Shown: in pieces, positions 40,846-48,567 of the stretch
Layout: each line of letters starts with the position of its first letter
Position numbering within the stretch: position 1 is the first letter of the stretch
Assembly (NCBI GenBank): GCA_017434855.1
Contig: JAFRUA010000043.1
Span: 1 to 61,036 of the forward strand
Length of the DNA: 61,036 nt
Direction: 5' to 3'
DNA from: Clostridia bacterium
GTDB lineage: Bacteria; Bacillota; Clostridia; Oscillospirales; Acutalibacteraceae
Translations under genes and position numbers: made by a program
The notes under the pieces: model-generated
Seen by the model: only the letters and a program-made list of their open reading frames with translations
Database searches by the model: none
Told to the model about the DNA's origin: nothing

Positions 40846-41266
40846 GCGGCGTCCCCTCCTTTTTCAGGCAATCTTCACACAGACCAAACAGCAGCGACTT
40901 TTCACGGTCGATCCAAAAACCGTGGTGAACCAGAAGATGTTCCTGAATGCCGTCCATCAGCGAGCAGTCCAGGTGGATGAACCGCCCGCAGCGCACGCAT
41001 TTCAGGTGCAGGTGCGCGCTGCAGTCGCCCACTTCATCCAGGTACTGGAACGTGGCGCACTTGCCGTCGGGTTCCACAAATTTGCGCACGCGGCCACTGT
41101 CCACCAGCCGTTGGATGTGGCGGTACGCCGTGGTTTTGCCCACGCTCAGACCGTCCTGCTCCATAAAAGCAAGCAGCTCGTCCATACTGTGCGCCCGCGT
41201 GCAATGCGCCTTGAGACATTGCAGGATACGGTCTTTTTGTTTGGTGTTGTAGCCCTGTTCACTCAC
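40832..41266 (-). CDS. Fur-family metalloregulator, probably Zur
   Basis: This 144-residue repressor has an N-terminal winged helix (DRILQCLKAHCTRAHSMDELL, TAYRHIQRLVDSGRV) and a C-terminal dimer domain with a structural zinc site (CVRCG, CEDCLKK) and His-rich sensing residues (HLHLKC, LLVHHGF). GTG at 41266 follows GGGGGA. It is the first gene of the metal-uptake operon and has a 7-1-7 palindrome in its promoter, which fits autorepression. Zinc specificity is inferred from the transporter type. Confidence 0.9.
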   Translation of the reverse strand: MSEQGYNTKQKDRILQCLKAHCTRAHSMDELLAFMEQDGLSVGKTTAYRHIQRLVDSGRVRKFVEPDGKCATFQYLDEVGDCSAHLHLKCVRCGRFIHLDCSLMDGIQEHLLVHHGFWIDREKSLLFGLCEDCLKKEGTPHGTD

Positions 41267-41294
41267 GGATTCGTCCCCCGTTCACAAAAGAAAC

Positions 41295-41309
41295 TGAAAT
41301 TCAATTTCA
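41295..41309. promoter_or_regulatory. Fur/Zur-type 7-1-7 operator
   Basis: TGAAATT C AATTTCA is a perfect palindrome with the 7-1-7 layout of Gram-positive Fur, Zur and PerR boxes. It begins 1 nt downstream of the -10 of the operon promoter, a position that would block transcription start. Confidence 0.8.
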
Positions 41310-41310
41310 T

Positions 41311-41339
41311 ATTATACGAGATGAAGCACCGTTTGTCAA
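41311..41339 (-). promoter_or_regulatory. consensus promoter of the metal-uptake operon
   Basis: The minus strand reads TTGACA (41339-41334), 17 nt, TATAAT (41316-41311), a perfect SigA consensus next to the operator. Confidence 0.88.
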
Positions 41340-41371
41340 GGGGAAACGACGTTGTTTTCAAGCAGGCGCAT

Positions 41372-41400
41372 AAAAAAGCGGACAGTCTTCACTGCCCGCT
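41372..41400 (-). terminator. terminator of the paralog-DUF4838 operon
   Basis: The minus-strand stem AGCGGGCAG/CTGTCCGCT is followed by TTTTTT. It lies about 30 nt past the DUF4838 stop and just upstream of the metal-operon promoter. Confidence 0.85.
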
Positions 41401-41432
41401 TATCCGCTGCAGCGCAGCGGCGCCCCGCCAAA

Positions 41433-43265
41433 TCAGAACAGGTGAAGCAGCCACCGCCGCACCGTCAGCACAAAATCATCAAATGCGTTGAGACTCGCGC
41501 CGAACCAATACCGCGTCGGATGATACATATAATCGTCAATAAAGGTGATCCCATAGCCTTCGCGCGCCTGAGTCGCGCCGGATGCAAGAATATCGTCATG
41601 GAGCTGCTGCCGGGCCGCCTTGCCCAGCCACATCCCCGCAAACTCGCCATAACCCACATCCGCCTTCCAATACCGCCACGAAATCTCGCTGCGCGCCAGG
41701 TGTGCCAGCGCCTCTTCACTGCCGGCATGCCGCTTGGCATAGGCCCAGTATCCGTCGCACACAGCGGCGGTTGCCGGGTCCATGATCAGATACCAGGACG
41801 GGCCAGTGCCGATGCACATGTGATTGATCTTTCCGAAAGCGCTGGTGGTATCAATGAATCTGCGGACAGCCCGCCAGCCGTCGCCGTAATATGCCCGCAA
41901 AAAGCCGTTCATCTCTTCGTCATAATCGCAATATGGGTTTTGCAGGCACTTTGAAATCAGATAGGCCCGCAACTCTCCGAATTCGGTGTTACACCGGTCC
42001 ATATAATAGTTCCCCTCGGTATACACGCCCTTCACGTTGTTTTCATAAAACACCTGGATATTGCGCTGAATCACACCAAAGTTTGGAAAATAGCACAGCG
42101 TGTGAGAATAATTTGTTGCATAATCCCATACATACAGTCGGTCGCAAATCTTTGACCAGTCCTGCAGGTCCTTTATAAACGCGCGGTTTTTTGAGCAGGT
42201 TTTGCAGTCCAGCGTGTGGGTAAAGCAGCATTCGATGGAGCAAAGGCGCACGATCACATTGTTGCGCGGCACAATCCCCGTGGGCACAGAACGGGTATAC
42301 TGATAGGCAAAGGTATCGACAGCGACATTATCATAGCCCTTTTTACTGACCGCGTCTGCGATTTGGTTGACAAAGTTCAGCATCGTTGCGGACTGCACAC
42401 TGCCATGTGCCATTTCAAACGCGCGGCAATCGTCGCATTCACAATAGGAAAAATTATCGTTCTGCGTCACGGATACGATCTGCAGCGACGCGCCGGGGTC
42501 ATGCTCTTTTTCCAAAAGCTTCAGCACATTCCGGGTCGCTGTCTCAAGCACCTTTGGATTTGTCAGGCACGGCTGATCGGTAGTGCGAACGCCGTCATGA
42601 AGCGCAAGAAACGTCGGATCGCTGTCTTTGTGCTGCTGCAACTCACAAAGCGCGCCAACCGTGTGGCAAAAGCCGCCCAGATAATCCACAGTTCCGCCGG
42701 CCGCTTTGGGAATCGTGCGCCGTTCGCCGCAAGTCAGTCCATTTGCAAGGGAATACTCTGTGTCCAGCGGGCTGTTCCAATCCGTATCTGTACACTCAAA
42801 AAATGGTTCATAGATGAGATCCGTATCTTTCGGGACGAAAAACTGCGATCTTTGTTCCACGCGAGTCAGTGCGGAGGTGTAGATCTTGCGCCCCGCAAAC
42901 GTCTCCATAAACCGATAGACTGCAATCTGAAGCCCGCGCGTGCCGTTGCCGTTGATATGGATGTTTCCATCAATCGCCCGGATCCGATATCCGTTCGCCT
43001 TCATCCCGCCGACGTCTGCAGATGACACGGCGCCAAGGGCGATATAATGATCGTTCGCCTCGGTTGTGATCTCCGGCGCACAGCCAAATACGTCGCCCAG
43101 CATTTCACAAAGCTTTTCTGCCGCAAAGCGTTCATAATCCGTGGGCGCAGCCGGAATCAGAATCGCTCGCTCAGCGTCGATCACAACGTCAGAAGCGCCG
43201 AACGAAAGCGGCACCGCCAACACAAGCATCAACACGGTCAGCAAAATGCAAATGGTTCTTTTCAT
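41433..43265 (-). CDS. secreted DUF4838 protein
   Basis: This 610-residue exported protein has a signal peptide (1-23, ending SFGA). Residues about 25-120 form a small alpha/beta domain like the N-terminal domain of GH67 and GH20 enzymes (DYERFAAEKLCEMLGDVFG). The large DUF4838 domain follows, with SVTQNDNFSYCECDDC, a region like a TIM barrel, and many cysteines. DUF4838 proteins are presumed carbohydrate-active, but no substrate is established. ATG at 43265 follows GGGGGAGG. It lies 68 nt after paralog B with no clear promoter between, so it belongs to that operon. Codon use looks somewhat less GC-rich than in its neighbours. Confidence 0.85.
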   Translation of the reverse strand: MKRTICILLTVLMLVLAVPLSFGASDVVIDAERAILIPAAPTDYERFAAEKLCEMLGDVFGCAPEITTEANDHYIALGAVSSADVGGMKANGYRIRAIDGNIHINGNGTRGLQIAVYRFMETFAGRKIYTSALTRVEQRSQFFVPKDTDLIYEPFFECTDTDWNSPLDTEYSLANGLTCGERRTIPKAAGGTVDYLGGFCHTVGALCELQQHKDSDPTFLALHDGVRTTDQPCLTNPKVLETATRNVLKLLEKEHDPGASLQIVSVTQNDNFSYCECDDCRAFEMAHGSVQSATMLNFVNQIADAVSKKGYDNVAVDTFAYQYTRSVPTGIVPRNNVIVRLCSIECCFTHTLDCKTCSKNRAFIKDLQDWSKICDRLYVWDYATNYSHTLCYFPNFGVIQRNIQVFYENNVKGVYTEGNYYMDRCNTEFGELRAYLISKCLQNPYCDYDEEMNGFLRAYYGDGWRAVRRFIDTTSAFGKINHMCIGTGPSWYLIMDPATAAVCDGYWAYAKRHAGSEEALAHLARSEISWRYWKADVGYGEFAGMWLGKAARQQLHDDILASGATQAREGYGITFIDDYMYHPTRYWFGASLNAFDDFVLTVRRWLLHLF

Positions 43266-43333
43266 CTGTTCCTCCCCCTTGACAAACGGTCGGCGACCGA
43301 TCGCTCAGCCGCCGACGCGTGAATATCAGGTTG

Positions 43334-44926
43334 TTATGCTGCCGGATTTTTGCCGATGTTGCTCAAGACCACCTTGAGCACAACGCCCACCAGATCGGCC
43401 ACGCCGTCGCTGGAATCGTCAAACACCGCAAGCAACTGGGCCTTGGTCTTGTCGTTGAAGATATCGACCTTGTCAAGCAGAACGCCGAGAATGTCGCCCT
43501 GCAGCACATAGTGTGCCAGGAAGCTGAACGCCGCGTTGGCGTTGGCCTTATAGACCTTGTTGCCGTTGGACAGCGTTGTCGCCGTGCCGCAGGCCAGGAA
43601 CGCCTTGGTGTTGAAGGTCGGCAGCTTCATGCCGTCGCCAAGCAGCTTTTTGACCAGCCCCTGCAGCAGACCGTCGAAGCCCTTGCTGAGCGGAATGCCC
43701 ATGCCTTCCACAAGATTGATGATCGTGTCGCCGAGGTTGAAGTATTCCTTACTGGCAAGGTCGATCTTCGCGAGCTCGGTGATCTTGCTGACAACGTCGC
43801 TGAAGTCGATGAACAGCGACAGCTTTTTCATATGTTTGCTGAACTCGCCGCTTTCAATGCTGTTGGCAAGGTTCATCAGTACGCTGGCAAGGTTGGTGGC
43901 CGGGTCTTCCATCAGCTTGTCAACCGCATTCAGCACGGTTTCGATCAGGGCTCTGAACACATCGCCCGGCTCTTCATAGCCGCAGAACACCTCTTTGCTG
44001 GGATAGTCGCCGTCCTTCAGCCCAAGGATGTTGAACAGATAGACGATGCCGTATTCATAGCCGCTGCGGCCGGTGCCGTCCAGCTGGCCGTTCTTGTTGA
44101 GCGCCGTGGCCACCGGAAGCAGACCGAGCACCAGGTTTGCACCCGGCAGGGTCGGCATACCCTCCGCTTCAAGCAGGGTGTTGACCATTTCGGCGGTGAT
44201 CTTCAGTTCGATCTCTTTGTTCTGCAGCGTGGTTTCCAGCAGACCGCTGAACGCCTTGGCACAGTCGTTGAGCGCCTCATAGAAAGTATCCGCGTCCTCA
44301 ACACCCCAGTCGATGGTGTCATAGATTCTGCTCTTTTGCTCCTCGCCGTTCTCGTCGGTCCACTTGACCTTGCGCTCCATGTACTTCCAGTTGGTACCCA
44401 CGTTGTCAAGAATCTGGCTGAGCGGCTTGCGGGTGCCGTCCAGGTCCACGGCGGTATAGGGTGTGCCGGCCATCAGCTTTGCGATGTCTTTGCCGTTGCC
44501 GTAAAGGTGGAACCCGGTGGCGGGCGCCAGAAGCATACCCTTGACCGCGTCATACAGCATCGGATACACGGCAGACATGATGGCGGTGACGATGCTGTCT
44601 TTATAAAGCACGCCGCGCAGCACGTCGCTGAGCTTTTGCTCGCCGCTGAGGATCTTTTTGACCATGTCGTCGTCTTCTTCCGCAGCGGGCGCTTCGCCGT
44701 TTTCACCGTCGGCCGGTTCCGCCGGCGCTTCGGTCGTTGTGGGCTTCCATTTTCTGTCGCCGGCAATGCTGACCTGATCCTCATCCTTGATGACGACGAT
44801 CGGGCTGCTGTCTTTCATGGATTTGCCTGCGGCAACGGCCACCAGCAGCACGGTCTGCAGCACGATCGCGATGCACAGCAGGACGACCAAAAATATTTTG
44901 AGCTTGGATCTTTTCTTCTTTTTCAT
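43334..44926 (-). CDS. membrane-anchored hypothetical protein, paralog B
   Basis: This 530-residue protein belongs to no family I recognise. It has a Lys-rich start, one membrane helix (IFLVVLLCIAIVLQTVLLVAVAA, about 11-33), a Thr/Pro/Glu/Asp-rich linker (60-85), then an external, mostly helical domain. It is clearly paralogous to the upstream gene: shared blocks include LRGVLYKDSIV, AVYPMLYDAVKGML, GYEYGIVYLFNILGL and ALIETVLNAVDKLM, and a C-terminal LSNGNKVY segment. ATG at 44926 follows AGGAGG. It sits 45 nt after paralog A and 68 nt before DUF4838. Function unknown; a surface role in glycan or polymer handling is only a guess from context. Confidence 0.75.
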   Translation of the reverse strand: MKKKKRSKLKIFLVVLLCIAIVLQTVLLVAVAAGKSMKDSSPIVVIKDEDQVSIAGDRKWKPTTTEAPAEPADGENGEAPAAEEDDDMVKKILSGEQKLSDVLRGVLYKDSIVTAIMSAVYPMLYDAVKGMLLAPATGFHLYGNGKDIAKLMAGTPYTAVDLDGTRKPLSQILDNVGTNWKYMERKVKWTDENGEEQKSRIYDTIDWGVEDADTFYEALNDCAKAFSGLLETTLQNKEIELKITAEMVNTLLEAEGMPTLPGANLVLGLLPVATALNKNGQLDGTGRSGYEYGIVYLFNILGLKDGDYPSKEVFCGYEEPGDVFRALIETVLNAVDKLMEDPATNLASVLMNLANSIESGEFSKHMKKLSLFIDFSDVVSKITELAKIDLASKEYFNLGDTIINLVEGMGIPLSKGFDGLLQGLVKKLLGDGMKLPTFNTKAFLACGTATTLSNGNKVYKANANAAFSFLAHYVLQGDILGVLLDKVDIFNDKTKAQLLAVFDDSSDGVADLVGVVLKVVLSNIGKNPAA

Positions 44927-44971
44927 GTTCTTTGCTCCTCCTTTGATCTCAATCGATGGATCGGTCGTCGC

Positions 44972-46468
44972 TTACATGTTGGAAAGCGCGATGATCAGGA
45001 CTTTTTTCAGCAGCTTGGTGACGTCCGCATCGGCTTTGTTGAAGGCCGCAACGATTTCTTTGATGCCGGCCTCGTCAATATAGATCAACGAATCGCTGAC
45101 TTTTTGAAGAATGCCCTCCAGCAGGTCGGCCTGCAGGATGTAATCGACCAGGGCGCCAAGCGTTTTGCCGGGCTTTGCGTGATAAACAACATAGCCGGAG
45201 GACAGCGTGACGGCGCCGGATTTTGCCTTAAGCGCCTCCACGTCAAACTGCGGAACCTCCATATCGGGATCAAGGAACTTGTGCAGCGCGCCGGCCAGCA
45301 GCTCGTTGAAGTCGCCATAGACCGGGATGCCCATGTCGTTGACGACGTTGAGCAGCGTGGTGCCGAGGTTGAACATTTCGCCGTCGGTCTGGCCGATCAT
45401 CTTTGCGATCGGGGTGAAGCGGCTTTCCATGTTCATCTTTGCAAGATTTGTGGACAGCTCTTTGCTGTCAATGTCCATGATGAGGTTGAGCAGGACATTG
45501 CACAGATTGTCAAGCGGGTTGGTCATGATCTTTTCCACCGCATAGATGATGGTTTCGATCAGAGACTTGAACATTTCACCGACGGTGGGATATGCGCAGA
45601 ATTCCTCGACGGTCGGGTATTCGCCCTCCACCAGGCCCAGCAGGTTATACAGATAGATGATGCCGTGCTCATAGCCGGTCTTTTCGTTCATGTTTTTGAT
45701 CTCTGCAACCTGCAGACGAATCGGCAGATTGTCAAATTTTTCCTTCGGCATGCCGATCGCGCCACCGACCTCACCCAGCAGATTGGTGGCGATCACGCCC
45801 ACCTTGCCCTGCAGCGTCAGCTCCAGCAAACCGCGGAAGCCCAGCGACATATCGGTGATGGCCGTGCAGAACGACGCCATGTCGCTCACATGCCAGTCGA
45901 TGGACTGGAAGATCGTCGTGGTCACTTCTTCACCGCTGTCGGTGGTCCAGGTCACGGGCGTCTTCATATAGTTCCAGTCGTTGCCGATGCTGTCAAGGAT
46001 ATCAATCAGCGGTTTGCGTTCGCCGTCCTTGTCGGTCGCCATATAGGACGGGCCGTTCGGCTGCTGCTTGAGCTGCGACGAATACAGCGGGCCGGTGCCG
46101 AACAGATGGATGCTCTGGGCATAGGCCAGGTCGTTCTTGATCGAATCATACAGCATGGGATAGACGATGTCCATCAGCGTGTTGACGATGTTGTTGGTGT
46201 AAAGGATGCTGCGCAGCGTGGCGCCGATGTCAAAGTCCTCATCCGCCGGCGTTTCGCCCGCGATCATGCCCACAATCTTCAGCAGCAGGCCGTCTGCGGT
46301 CGGCGTATAAGGATTGTCCATGATCTTGACAGCGGTCTGCTGTTCCACCACGGGGCGCACGGGCTGCTTCGCCTTGCTGCGCCCGATCAGTGCGGTTGCA
46401 ATGATCTCAACCACAAGGACCGCGCAGAGGATGATGACCACTATTTTTTTTCGTTTGGATTTCTGCAT
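44972..46468 (-). CDS. membrane-anchored hypothetical protein, paralog A
   Basis: This 498-residue protein has one N-terminal membrane helix (IVVIILCAVLVVEIIATALI, about 9-28) and an external domain matching paralog B along its whole length: LRSILYTNNIVNTLMDIVYP, MLYDSIKNDL, GYEHGIIYLYNLLGL, SLIETIIYAVEKIM, NLCNVLLNLIMDID and LSSGYVVYHA. Alternating amphipathic helices and few Cys residues suggest a helical repeat. ATG at 46468 follows AGGAGG. It is the first gene of the operon, behind a clear promoter. I know of no function for this family. Confidence 0.75.
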   Translation of the reverse strand: MQKSKRKKIVVIILCAVLVVEIIATALIGRSKAKQPVRPVVEQQTAVKIMDNPYTPTADGLLLKIVGMIAGETPADEDFDIGATLRSILYTNNIVNTLMDIVYPMLYDSIKNDLAYAQSIHLFGTGPLYSSQLKQQPNGPSYMATDKDGERKPLIDILDSIGNDWNYMKTPVTWTTDSGEEVTTTIFQSIDWHVSDMASFCTAITDMSLGFRGLLELTLQGKVGVIATNLLGEVGGAIGMPKEKFDNLPIRLQVAEIKNMNEKTGYEHGIIYLYNLLGLVEGEYPTVEEFCAYPTVGEMFKSLIETIIYAVEKIMTNPLDNLCNVLLNLIMDIDSKELSTNLAKMNMESRFTPIAKMIGQTDGEMFNLGTTLLNVVNDMGIPVYGDFNELLAGALHKFLDPDMEVPQFDVEALKAKSGAVTLSSGYVVYHAKPGKTLGALVDYILQADLLEGILQKVSDSLIYIDEAGIKEIVAAFNKADADVTKLLKKVLIIALSNM

Positions 46469-46550
46469 CTTGAAGTTCCTCCTTTAATTCTGCCGTACGG
46501 CAAACCGCCGGCGGCAAATAAAGCATATCCTTTTCCAGTCTTGCCATTTC

Positions 46551-46579
46551 ATTTTATATGATTCGACGGTATAAGTCAA
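46551..46579 (-). promoter_or_regulatory. promoter of the paralog-DUF4838 operon
   Basis: The minus strand reads TTGACT (46579-46574), 17 nt, TAAAAT (46556-46551), about 80 nt upstream of paralog A. Confidence 0.75.
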
Positions 46580-46650
46580 CACCTTTTTATTAAAATTTTA
46601 AATTTCTTTGAAATTTTATTGTGATGCTACCCAAAATATGTTGCAATTTC

Positions 46651-46679
46651 TTGACAAAATTTCACAATTACGTTATACT
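46651..46679 (+). promoter_or_regulatory. promoter of the acyltransferase-DUF6320 pair
   Basis: TTGACA, 17 nt, TATACT, with a leader of about 78 nt. It is divergent from the paralog operon promoter, and the AT-rich spacer between them could hold a shared regulatory site. Confidence 0.8.
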
Positions 46680-46763
46680 TTTCAAGACAAATCACAACAT
46701 CCGGCCGTTATAATCTATTACAGAAATATAAATTTGCAGCCGATCCGGCAAGGAGGTCCTTTG

Positions 46764-48050
46764 ATGAAAAACTTTGACGCGTCTTCCTGCAAAAACTGCG
46801 CCTGGCTCCCGCTTGACAACGCGGGGCATCTGTATGCCGGGGCGCACCTCAAGAACTGGTCGCGCACCTTTCGCGTTGCCGCCGTTCTGGACGAGGATGT
46901 AAAACCCGACCTGCTGCAGCAGGCGCTTGACGATCTTTCACAGCGCGCGCCGAGCTATTTTGTCAGGCTGCGCGACGGCCTGTTCTGGAGTTATCTGGAG
47001 CGGACCGATGAACACGCCGTTGTAAAAGAAGAGGACAACCTCCCCTATCGGCCGATCCCGCTGACCGGAAACATGCAGCCGAACTTCCGCGTGCTGTATT
47101 GCAAAAAGCGCGTGGCGCTCGAGATCTTCCATGCCGTGTGCGACGGCAGCGCAGCGTTTCATTTTTTGGTCTCGCTGCTCACGCGGTACTATGAGCTGCA
47201 GGGTGTCACGATCTCGGACTTCACCAACGCGCTCTCTTGCGCCGACACACCTACCGCCGAAGAGTGCGGCGACGCCTATCGCAAGCACAGCGACGCTGAG
47301 GTGCCGCTGCGCAACCCGAAAAAGCCGGACACCTACTTTCGTCCGGAGCCGACCATCCCCCGCTATGCCAACGTGATCCACGGCGTCATGCGTGTGGAGG
47401 ACGTCCGGCGCGCCGCAGCAAATTATGAAGTGACCGTGACGGAATATCTGGCCGCCGTGCTGATGTTCTGCTATCTCAACACCGCCGACGAACCGGTCAC
47501 ATCTCCGCTGCGCGTCAGCATCCCCATCGACCTGCGCCGCCACTTTGACAGCCAAAGCACGCGCAACTTTGCCTATATGTTTGACGTCAGCTTTGACCCG
47601 AAGGGCCGCACCGACGTGGAATTTACCGAAATCTGCGCCGCGCTGGCCGGCCAGGTCCAGGAAAAGTCAGACCCGGCGATTCTGCGGCATGAAATCAGCG
47701 CCAATGTCAAAACGCAAGCCAACCCGCTGCTGCGCGCCGTGCCGTACCCGATCAAGAAGCTTGTGCTGCGTCAGAACTATAAAAAATCGCAGCTTGCGTT
47801 CACAACATTCTTATCCAACTATGGGGTGCTGACTGCCCCGCCCGAGGTGCTGCCGCACATCAGGCGCGCCGAATTTGTTCTGGGCGACACGCCCTATCAG
47901 CCGTTCAACGTCGCCTGCGTTTCGGTCAACGACCTGCTGACGCTGTCGGTCGGCGCCAGCCACCCGGACCGGACCAAGCAGCAATTCATCTTCCGCTTTC
48001 TGGCGTCAGAGGGCATTGACGTCCGGGTCGAAAGCAATTTCTTTGAATGA
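46764..48050 (+). CDS. alcohol acetyltransferase/condensation-like acyltransferase
   Basis: This 428-residue protein has the CoA-dependent acyltransferase (chloramphenicol acetyltransferase-condensation) fold. The catalytic HxxxDG motif is HAVCDG (about residues 124-129), and the usual structural motif region is RVSIPIDLRRHF. Such proteins sit beside DUF6320 genes in many Clostridia and may acylate a lipid or alcohol; the acceptor is unknown. ATG at 46764 follows AAGGAGG; the frame upstream (from 46608) contains the promoter. The DUF6320 gene follows after 10 nt. Confidence 0.83.
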   Translation: MKNFDASSCKNCAWLPLDNAGHLYAGAHLKNWSRTFRVAAVLDEDVKPDLLQQALDDLSQRAPSYFVRLRDGLFWSYLERTDEHAVVKEEDNLPYRPIPLTGNMQPNFRVLYCKKRVALEIFHAVCDGSAAFHFLVSLLTRYYELQGVTISDFTNALSCADTPTAEECGDAYRKHSDAEVPLRNPKKPDTYFRPEPTIPRYANVIHGVMRVEDVRRAAANYEVTVTEYLAAVLMFCYLNTADEPVTSPLRVSIPIDLRRHFDSQSTRNFAYMFDVSFDPKGRTDVEFTEICAALAGQVQEKSDPAILRHEISANVKTQANPLLRAVPYPIKKLVLRQNYKKSQLAFTTFLSNYGVLTAPPEVLPHIRRAEFVLGDTPYQPFNVACVSVNDLLTLSVGASHPDRTKQQFIFRFLASEGIDVRVESNFFE

Positions 48051-48060
48051 GGTGACAGCC

Positions 48061-48567
48061 ATGCGATGCAATGAATGTAATGTCGATCTTGGCGAAAGCT
48101 ATCACATCTGCCCGCTCTGCGGCGCCAAGGCCGCAGATGAACCGGCGCATCTTGCCGGCGTAGAGGAAGCGCCGTACCCCGATGTAACAAAATCGGTCGA
48201 GCAGCTCTGGGATCCCGACCGTCCGGGCAAAGCGGTCTTTCGCGTCACGGCGGTATTGGCTGCGGCGCTGGCCGTGTTTGGCGGACCGTTCACCTGCGGC
48301 TTCCTGGCGCCGGCGTTGCTGCTGATCTCTGCGCTGTATTATTTCTTTTCCGCGCTGCGCGAGCCGGGCCGGCTGCTGCACGCCGGGCTGTCGTCTTTGC
48401 TGACGCTGCTCCTGTCTGCCGCGCTGCTGATCGTTGTGCTTGTGCGTCACGTTGCGGCGTGGCCCACGCTGCTGCTGTGCGTGTTTGCCGGCGCGTTTTT
48501 TGCCGTTTTGTGCGTCGAGTACCCCGAACGGATGCGTGCCCAGCTTGCGGCCGTGCTGCATCACTGA
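48061..48567 (+). CDS. DUF6320 zinc-ribbon membrane protein
   Basis: This 168-residue protein has an N-terminal zinc ribbon (CNECNVDLG, CPLCGAKA), then four or five membrane helices (about 58-155). DUF6320 proteins commonly partner with the acyltransferase just upstream, so they may form a membrane lipid- or glycan-modifying unit. ATG at 48061 follows GAGGTGA. Its last 7 nt overlap the end of the convergent lipoprotein gene. Confidence 0.82.
   Translation: MRCNECNVDLGESYHICPLCGAKAADEPAHLAGVEEAPYPDVTKSVEQLWDPDRPGKAVFRVTAVLAAALAVFGGPFTCGFLAPALLLISALYYFFSALREPGRLLHAGLSSLLTLLLSAALLIVVLVRHVAAWPTLLLCVFAGAFFAVLCVEYPERMRAQLAAVLHH

Follow-up and report, generated by a model that had tools for sequence, protein, structure and literature searches.

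Among described proteins, the nearest in kind to those considered here is Embp of staphylococci, a 1-MDa protein whose repeats each consist of two alpha-helical bundles (PMC7587433). We analysed a stretch of 61,036 nucleotides, referred to below as the window, from a Clostridia bacterium of the family Acutalibacteraceae (contig JAFRUA010000043.1 of assembly GCA_017434855.1). Two tandem genes in it, A and B, encode what are, on sequence comparison, single, membrane-helix-bearing copies of an uncatalogued module of about 450 residues that builds giant open frames. The giants would resemble Embp and Ebh in being surface proteins of about 1 MDa with many tandem helix-rich modules, likely forming long rods or fibres. 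They differ from Embp in that the module is about 450 residues long, combines helices with short strands and has no Pfam match, and in that it also exists as single-module membrane-anchored proteins (A and B). Fibrillar adhesins in general, the subject of PMC9210967, share the repeat stalk, signal peptide and surface anchor, but no adhesive or stalk domain is recognised in the module copies. In its passage on the Lipocone superfamily, a further source (PMC12419801) mentions giant proteins of Patescibacteria and not the module described here. Giant repetitive surface proteins are already known, but this module has no matching Pfam or NCBIfam entry.

The two genes are as follows.

44972-46468, minus strand: gene A, an open reading frame (ORF) of 498 aa with an N-terminal membrane helix (residues 4-32) and one copy of the module (residues ~77-463).
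43334-44926, minus strand: gene B, an ORF of 530 aa, the tandem paralog of A with the same layout.

An earlier, sequence-only reading of the window had described A and B as tandem paralogs along their whole length, and this was confirmed: the proteins share 39% identity (E 4e-87) over nearly their full length in a genome search, and 36-37% over 482-534 columns by BLASTP. The one N-terminal membrane helix proposed for each is also supported, as the hydropathy scan found a single N-terminal hydrophobic segment per protein (A 4-32, B 5-37), and both are predicted to be extracytoplasmic. The external domain had been called helical, and the AlphaFold models of A and of the B ectodomain are indeed mostly helix, but several short beta strands are also present. 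In the model of A the 10-residue mean predicted local distance difference test score is 62-94 over residues 81-450 and mostly >75, and the B ectodomain model has a predicted template modelling score of 0.78. Neither model had a significant structural match in the structure searches run. Its assignment of A and B to an unknown family holds at the database level: a Pfam scan of both proteins gave nothing above 14.3 bits, an NCBIfam scan of both gave no match up to E 1, and a PDB sequence search with A likewise gave no match up to E 1.

A search of 59 relatives (own genome included) with A returned A-class genes, whole or fragmentary, in 10 other genomes of the genus, as well as weak matches, with E values of 1.4e-6 to 6.8e-4, that lie inside longer ORFs, the longest being 11,580 codons. 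A profile of 20 A/B-class proteins, built from an alignment (A2) that excludes L065 (cut by a contig end) and L067 (partial), scored positive in 16 of 19 giant-type sequences, with 84 bits for the best single stretch and 113.5 for the best whole protein; among 380 locally shuffled versions (20 per sequence) and 19 reversals, no stretch exceeded 2.5 bits. The three sequences without a positive stretch score (L023, L026 and L027) were represented by the longest ORF per locus and not by the matched frame; L027 reaches 325 bits in a six-frame run, and L026 carries the B-like fragment of genome G022 and no giant. When the A/B class was aligned by hhalign to 21 modules from giant-type and two-copy proteins, the match had a probability of 99.9% and E 1.5e-35 over 343 columns, spanning residues 77-463 of A, and profile iteration splits the giants into tandem copies. 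Of the 335 proteins called in the window and the 20 named loci, 22 exceed 100 bits, and no other protein scores more than 7.8 bits. Chance similarity arising from hydrophobic helices was rejected because shuffles, reversals and neighbouring proteins are silent, and drift during iteration was rejected because the A/B-only profile matches the giants before any iteration and hhalign compared separate alignments.

In an alignment of 30 module copies, the core of the module comprises a conserved W, a WGV-like element and a GY...PLLEALG-like element, and W142, W201, Y262 and G274 (first-row numbering) are conserved in >=90% of rows. A and B retain the W, W, GY and LG of this core, whereas the P-L-L-E is replaced by Y-L-Y/F-N. 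The staphylococcal repeats are represented in Pfam by the FIVAR model. Helical-bundle repeats of the Embp/Ebh type were not matched when the 30 copies were scanned against Pfam at E<=0.01, a scan that gave one weak, unrelated match in one member; the NCBIfam scan of the same copies also gave one weak match in one member. The module profile found nothing below E 0.048 in PDB, and no adhesive or stalk domain was found in the module copies and three large module proteins or parts of them, apart from one sub-threshold HD_4 match. A literature search did not find the module treated in titles or the starts of abstracts, which is weak evidence of absence as the module has no searchable name and the collection searched lacks most subscription journals and all of bioRxiv; DUF4838, discussed below, came up in a single paper.

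Besides A and B, the module occurs in the window's own genome in frames of 9,088 codons (contig C19), 882 codons, at least 3,155 codons (contig C66, cut by the contig end) and 2,999 codons (contig C20); several of these copies are also in the query alignment, so that their E values are partly circular. The giants carry about 15-20 divergent tandem copies. In the C19 giant, 15 profile matches, 13 of them long, cover 83% of the protein, and the iterated profile covers 90-96% of the giants of three relatives, which were read only in part, and 62% of the C20 frame, though this profile was built partly from the giants it covers. The C19 giant starts with a signal peptide (by eye) and ends in an amphipathic tail. 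Two-copy proteins (~870-880 aa) begin with a signal-like stretch, and inspection by eye suggests a membrane helix at the C-terminus. One of them, of ~880 aa (L042:13830-16472), lies ~8 kb from the 9,088-codon giant and near ABC-transporter-like genes (named by eye), and module ORFs of this size recur across the family.

The C-termini that were read from six module proteins of >=2,999 codons each form an amphipathic, aromatic and basic tail, e.g. WFQRLIRAIKEFFRKLFSFGR (loci L143/L041/L042 on own contig C19, L044, L144, L046-L047 and L145-L149). Similar tails are found on a few other ORFs, namely one of 567 codons in L051 and one of 716 in L038, and weakly on the DUF4838 protein encoded in the window. 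The tail is a possible surface-retention signal. A 1,437-aa module protein of G035 ends otherwise, with a hydrophobic segment and lysines. A small ArsC-like gene (by eye) lies near the giant gene both in the own genome (L042:5868-6260) and in G026 (L046:997-1353), hinting at a conserved genomic location of the giant.

In the distribution analysis with the module profile up to four candidates were scored per genome, so that the copy numbers are minimum values, as the genome counts may be. At least 64 of the 398 genomes sampled from the window's family, from 21 of 135 genera, matched at E<=1e-6. The order-wide sample yielded at least 5 of 394 genomes (the own genome, three further members of the family and one genome from outside it) and the phylum-wide sample at least 1 of 398, the own genome. 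The A/B profile matched 22 of 398 family genomes at E<=1e-5; full-length anchored forms were found in the own genome and, outside its genus, in six genomes from two genera. The 20 named loci derive from metagenome-assembled genome records labelled Ruminococcaceae, Oscillospiraceae, Clostridiaceae or Clostridia; their sources, where stated, are the rumen, caecum, rectum, omasum or faeces of sheep, goat, deer and horse.

The order of the copies was compared between giants. Each of the 13 long copies of the own giant scores higher against the giants of G009 and G031 than against any copy in its own protein, and the copy order shows 0/78 inversions in either case. Between those two relatives, 15/15 copies of G031 are better matched in G009 and 12/15 copies of G009 are better matched in G031, with 0/105 inversions in both directions. 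In the G026 giant, four copies in a block and the final copy keep the order, and the remainder does not. Hence, the first three giants hold an old, specified order of specialised modules, and the fourth (G026) has turned over in its middle. Such colinear, position-specific copies indicate a giant that is, within the genus, specified and not a freely expanding repeat.

Our tentative reading, to which we give a little less than an even chance, is that A and B are membrane-anchored docking modules for a modular surface fibre. The giants would be long modular surface or matrix fibres, and A and B would present the module at the membrane as short docking stubs. By binding giant modules, or each other, these stubs would tether the fibre to the cell surface or give it order there. 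The anchored class alone has a D-x-D-G-x-R-K segment, which would serve as a special contact or ion-binding site. The docking role is proposed because of the analogy with giant helical surface proteins such as Embp (PMC7587433). A wider and somewhat doubtful version is that we are dealing with a new megadalton surface architecture, largely confined to one clostridial family and based on a module of unrecognised fold, in which colinear chains of about 15-20 specialised copies and free membrane-anchored single units would recognise each other homotypically, so that the cell would build and anchor a fibre or coat from one self-complementary part.

Several observations weigh against docking. An A-class gene, whole or in pieces, is present in only 11 of the 34 genomes of the genus (own included), and module-bearing giants occur in G009, G017, G030 and G031, where no A-class gene was found; as giants are present in genomes in which A was not found, giants do not need A. 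In the own genome A is on contig C33 and the giants are on C19, C20 and C66, and thus not together. The copy order is also less strict in the remaining comparisons: when the direction is reversed, 11/15 copies of G009 and 12/15 of G031 are better matched in the own giant than within themselves, with 1/105 inversions each, and for the own giant against that of G026 only 6/13 copies are better, with 18/78 inversions and a rearranged middle. The acyltransferase neighbour kept in the window's clade, considered below, points to lipid chemistry and not to fibre anchoring.

The D-x-D-G-x-R-K segment lies at residues 146-152 of A. In the 30-row alignment the longer pattern Y-x-x-x-D-x-D-G-x-R-K is found in the five anchored proteins and in none of the giant-type copies, and a motif search found D-x-D-G-x-R-K in 20/20 anchored proteins and 0/22 giant-type sequences (partly overlapping, three in the wrong frame). 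In the A model it is located at two short strands (143-145 and 151-153), and likewise in the B model. There are 38 invariant columns among the 20 A/B-class proteins, and several polar ones are clustered at 142-152. This clustering, together with the lack of the segment in the aligned giant copies, is what would be expected if A and B were enzymes of unknown fold and the giants used the same scaffold without catalysis, and D146, D148, R151, K152, W165, Y167, W192 and D196 would then be among the residues of an active or metal site. Both the enzyme and this choice of residues seem distinctly improbable, as no enzyme family or solved fold matched above threshold and a conserved acidic-glycine-basic hairpin may just as well have a structural or ion-binding role. 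On the docking reading, the segment is a natural candidate for a contact or ion site.

Upstream of A, the following features are found on the opposite strand.

46651-46679, plus strand: promoter-like site of the divergent pair (TTGACA, 17 nt, TATACT; 11/12 consensus bases).
46764-48050, plus strand: acyltransferase-like gene, divergent from A, with an HAVCDG (HxxxDG) motif and weak WS/DGAT and PapA matches.
48061-48567, plus strand: small zinc-ribbon-like gene, partner of the acyltransferase (Zn_Ribbon_1, E 0.03, below the cut-off; hydrophobic segments by hydropathy).

The HxxxDG motif is linked to the WS/DGAT, PapA and condensation-domain families. The product of 46764-48050 resembles these acyltransferases in having HAVCDG, at position 125, and in its weak matches to WS/DGAT and PapA models, but it differs in falling far below their curated cut-offs (17.9 bits against 309.95 for TIGR02946, and 13.8 against 30 for PF16911). 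The sequence-only reading had called this a divergent acyltransferase-DUF6320 pair; the divergent, acyltransferase-like gene stands, but the second gene is zinc-ribbon-like and not DUF6320, as PF19845 did not match the 48061-48567 product in a Pfam scan up to E 1, nor anything in the whole genome at E<=10.

In the tree of A proteins, the window's clade comprises the window, L048-L054 and L067, and the other loci are L055-L066. The zinc-ribbon and acyltransferase genes are kept, divergent from A, in 9/9 loci of the window's clade. This conservation raises the question of whether A and B instead work with the divergent acyltransferase, the ectodomain binding, presenting or relaying an acylated lipid or glycolipid as part of an envelope-lipid system, a reading that we regard as unlikely, as we do the accompanying proposal that the module common to the giants is a hydrophobic-ligand-binding fold. 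The pair is absent beside A in 12/12 of the other loci (by BLAST clustering of rough gene calls), including L060 and L065 from genomes counted as the same genus as the window. Within the genus, 10 genomes have both A and a close acyltransferase homolog, 1 has A alone, 3 have the acyltransferase alone and 20 have neither, where "close" means >=44% identity, a cut-off placed once it was apparent that the values fall either at 44-58% or at <=34%. Hence, a close acyltransferase is found in 10/11 A-bearing and 3/23 A-less genomes (Fisher p 2e-5, uncorrected for relatedness), an association in favour of a lipid role, but G016, G025 and G026 have the enzyme where no A-class gene was found. Genes found beside A elsewhere fit a lipid role as well. 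In L051 (11724-14941), L052 and L054, an AMP-binding ligase, a Condensation-domain protein and an ~80-aa protein are encoded downstream of the A homolog (assigned by Pfam in L051 and by BLAST cluster in L052 and L054, the ~80-aa protein resembling a carrier protein by size only); together they may form a small lipopeptide or acyl-conjugate pathway. A GDSL-lipase-like gene, assigned by Pfam on L066 only, adjoins A in 4/5 loci of one other clade, the fifth being cut by the contig end. The structure searches with the A and B models found no fold resemblance hinting at lipid binding.

Downstream, A and B are followed by a third gene, and the three are bracketed by signal-like sites.

46551-46579, minus strand: promoter-like site upstream of A (TTGACT, 17 nt, TAAAAT; 10/12 consensus bases).
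41433-43265, minus strand: DUF4838 gene, last of the three in the putative operon, encoding 610 aa that start with a hydrophobic, signal-like segment.
41376-41401, minus strand: terminator-like hairpin 3' of the DUF4838 gene (11-bp stem, 4-nt loop, T run).

The three minus-strand ORFs and the gaps of 45 nt (A-B) and 68 nt (B-DUF4838) given in the sequence-only reading were both reproduced, and a G-rich, ribosome-binding-like stretch, read directly from the sequence, precedes each of the three starts. The single promoter and single terminator it proposed for them agree with the bracketing sites, though such scans return consensus matches of limited force and not proof: 41200-46800 contains 8 promoter-like and 4 terminator-like sites, where 3.4 and 6.4, respectively, would be expected. 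It is plausible that A, B and the DUF4838 gene form a transcription unit. A 1080-aa antisense open frame (43319-46561, plus strand) was rejected as a gene because it overlaps both conserved genes A and B. A perfect 12/12 promoter consensus (TTGACA-17-TATAAT) lies just downstream of the operon terminator at 41311-41339 on the minus strand, and precedes a Fur-like regulator gene and an ABC-transport operon (genes named by eye).

The third protein is a clear member of the DUF4838 family, as had been proposed (PF16126, E 4.8e-80, 269.6 bits against a gathering cut-off of 26.6), with a hydrophobic segment at residues 1-31 by hydropathy and a weak N-terminal Glyco_hydro_20b stretch below the cut-off. 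The close spacing, the single promoter-like and terminator-like sites and this weak stretch were compatible with the original proposal that A, B and the DUF4838 protein are one self-contained extracellular system acting on a glycan or surface polymer, which we now consider very improbable. The comparison of neighbourhoods in relatives, named beforehand as a refuting test, goes against the association. Neither a second A-class gene nor a DUF4838 gene lies downstream of the A homolog in any of the 15 of 20 relative loci with >=4 kb downstream (0/15; L056, L060, L063, L065 and L067, with A near a contig end, were excluded), and tblastn of the DUF4838 protein at E<=1e-3 gave no match in those relative loci that were included in this comparison. 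DUF4838 homologs are present in 9/34 genomes of the genus (own included), and in the five other genomes that have both a homolog and A the genes are on different contigs. The own genome has a second DUF4838 gene elsewhere, on contig C8 (L096/L107), 58% identical to the copy in the window. Among the loci seen, DUF4838 is beside A in the own genome only, and no evidence for a glycan or surface-polymer purpose was found beyond the adjacent gene. The A-B-DUF4838 operon is a local arrangement, and the DUF4838 gene is a local neighbour, perhaps one that acts on carbohydrate.

Among the loci seen, A and B themselves stand side by side in this genome only, the relative loci having a single A-class gene according to gene calls that, in these AT-rich loci, are rough (longest ORF). 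A recent origin of B was rejected, as A and B are only 37-39% identical and lie on the longest branches of the tree (0.9 and 1.11). In G022, an A-like N-terminal fragment (48% to A, 40% to B) adjoins the acyltransferase where one contig ends, and the end of another contig has a C-terminal fragment whose closest match is B (45.5%); this genome may hold both A and B. With the low identity and the long branches, these fragments make the duplication appear old rather than recent; the single gene of relatives may be the ortholog of either A or B.

The interest of this locus lies in the module family and not in the A-B-DUF4838 operon. In rumen and gut Clostridia, some very large predicted proteins consist mostly of this module, and A and B offer a single copy of ~400 residues that, unlike the giants, is open to expression, crystallisation and knock-out. 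Binding of A and B to the giants, if real, would assign a role in surface structure or adhesion to a large body of sequence from herbivore gut bacteria that has long had none.

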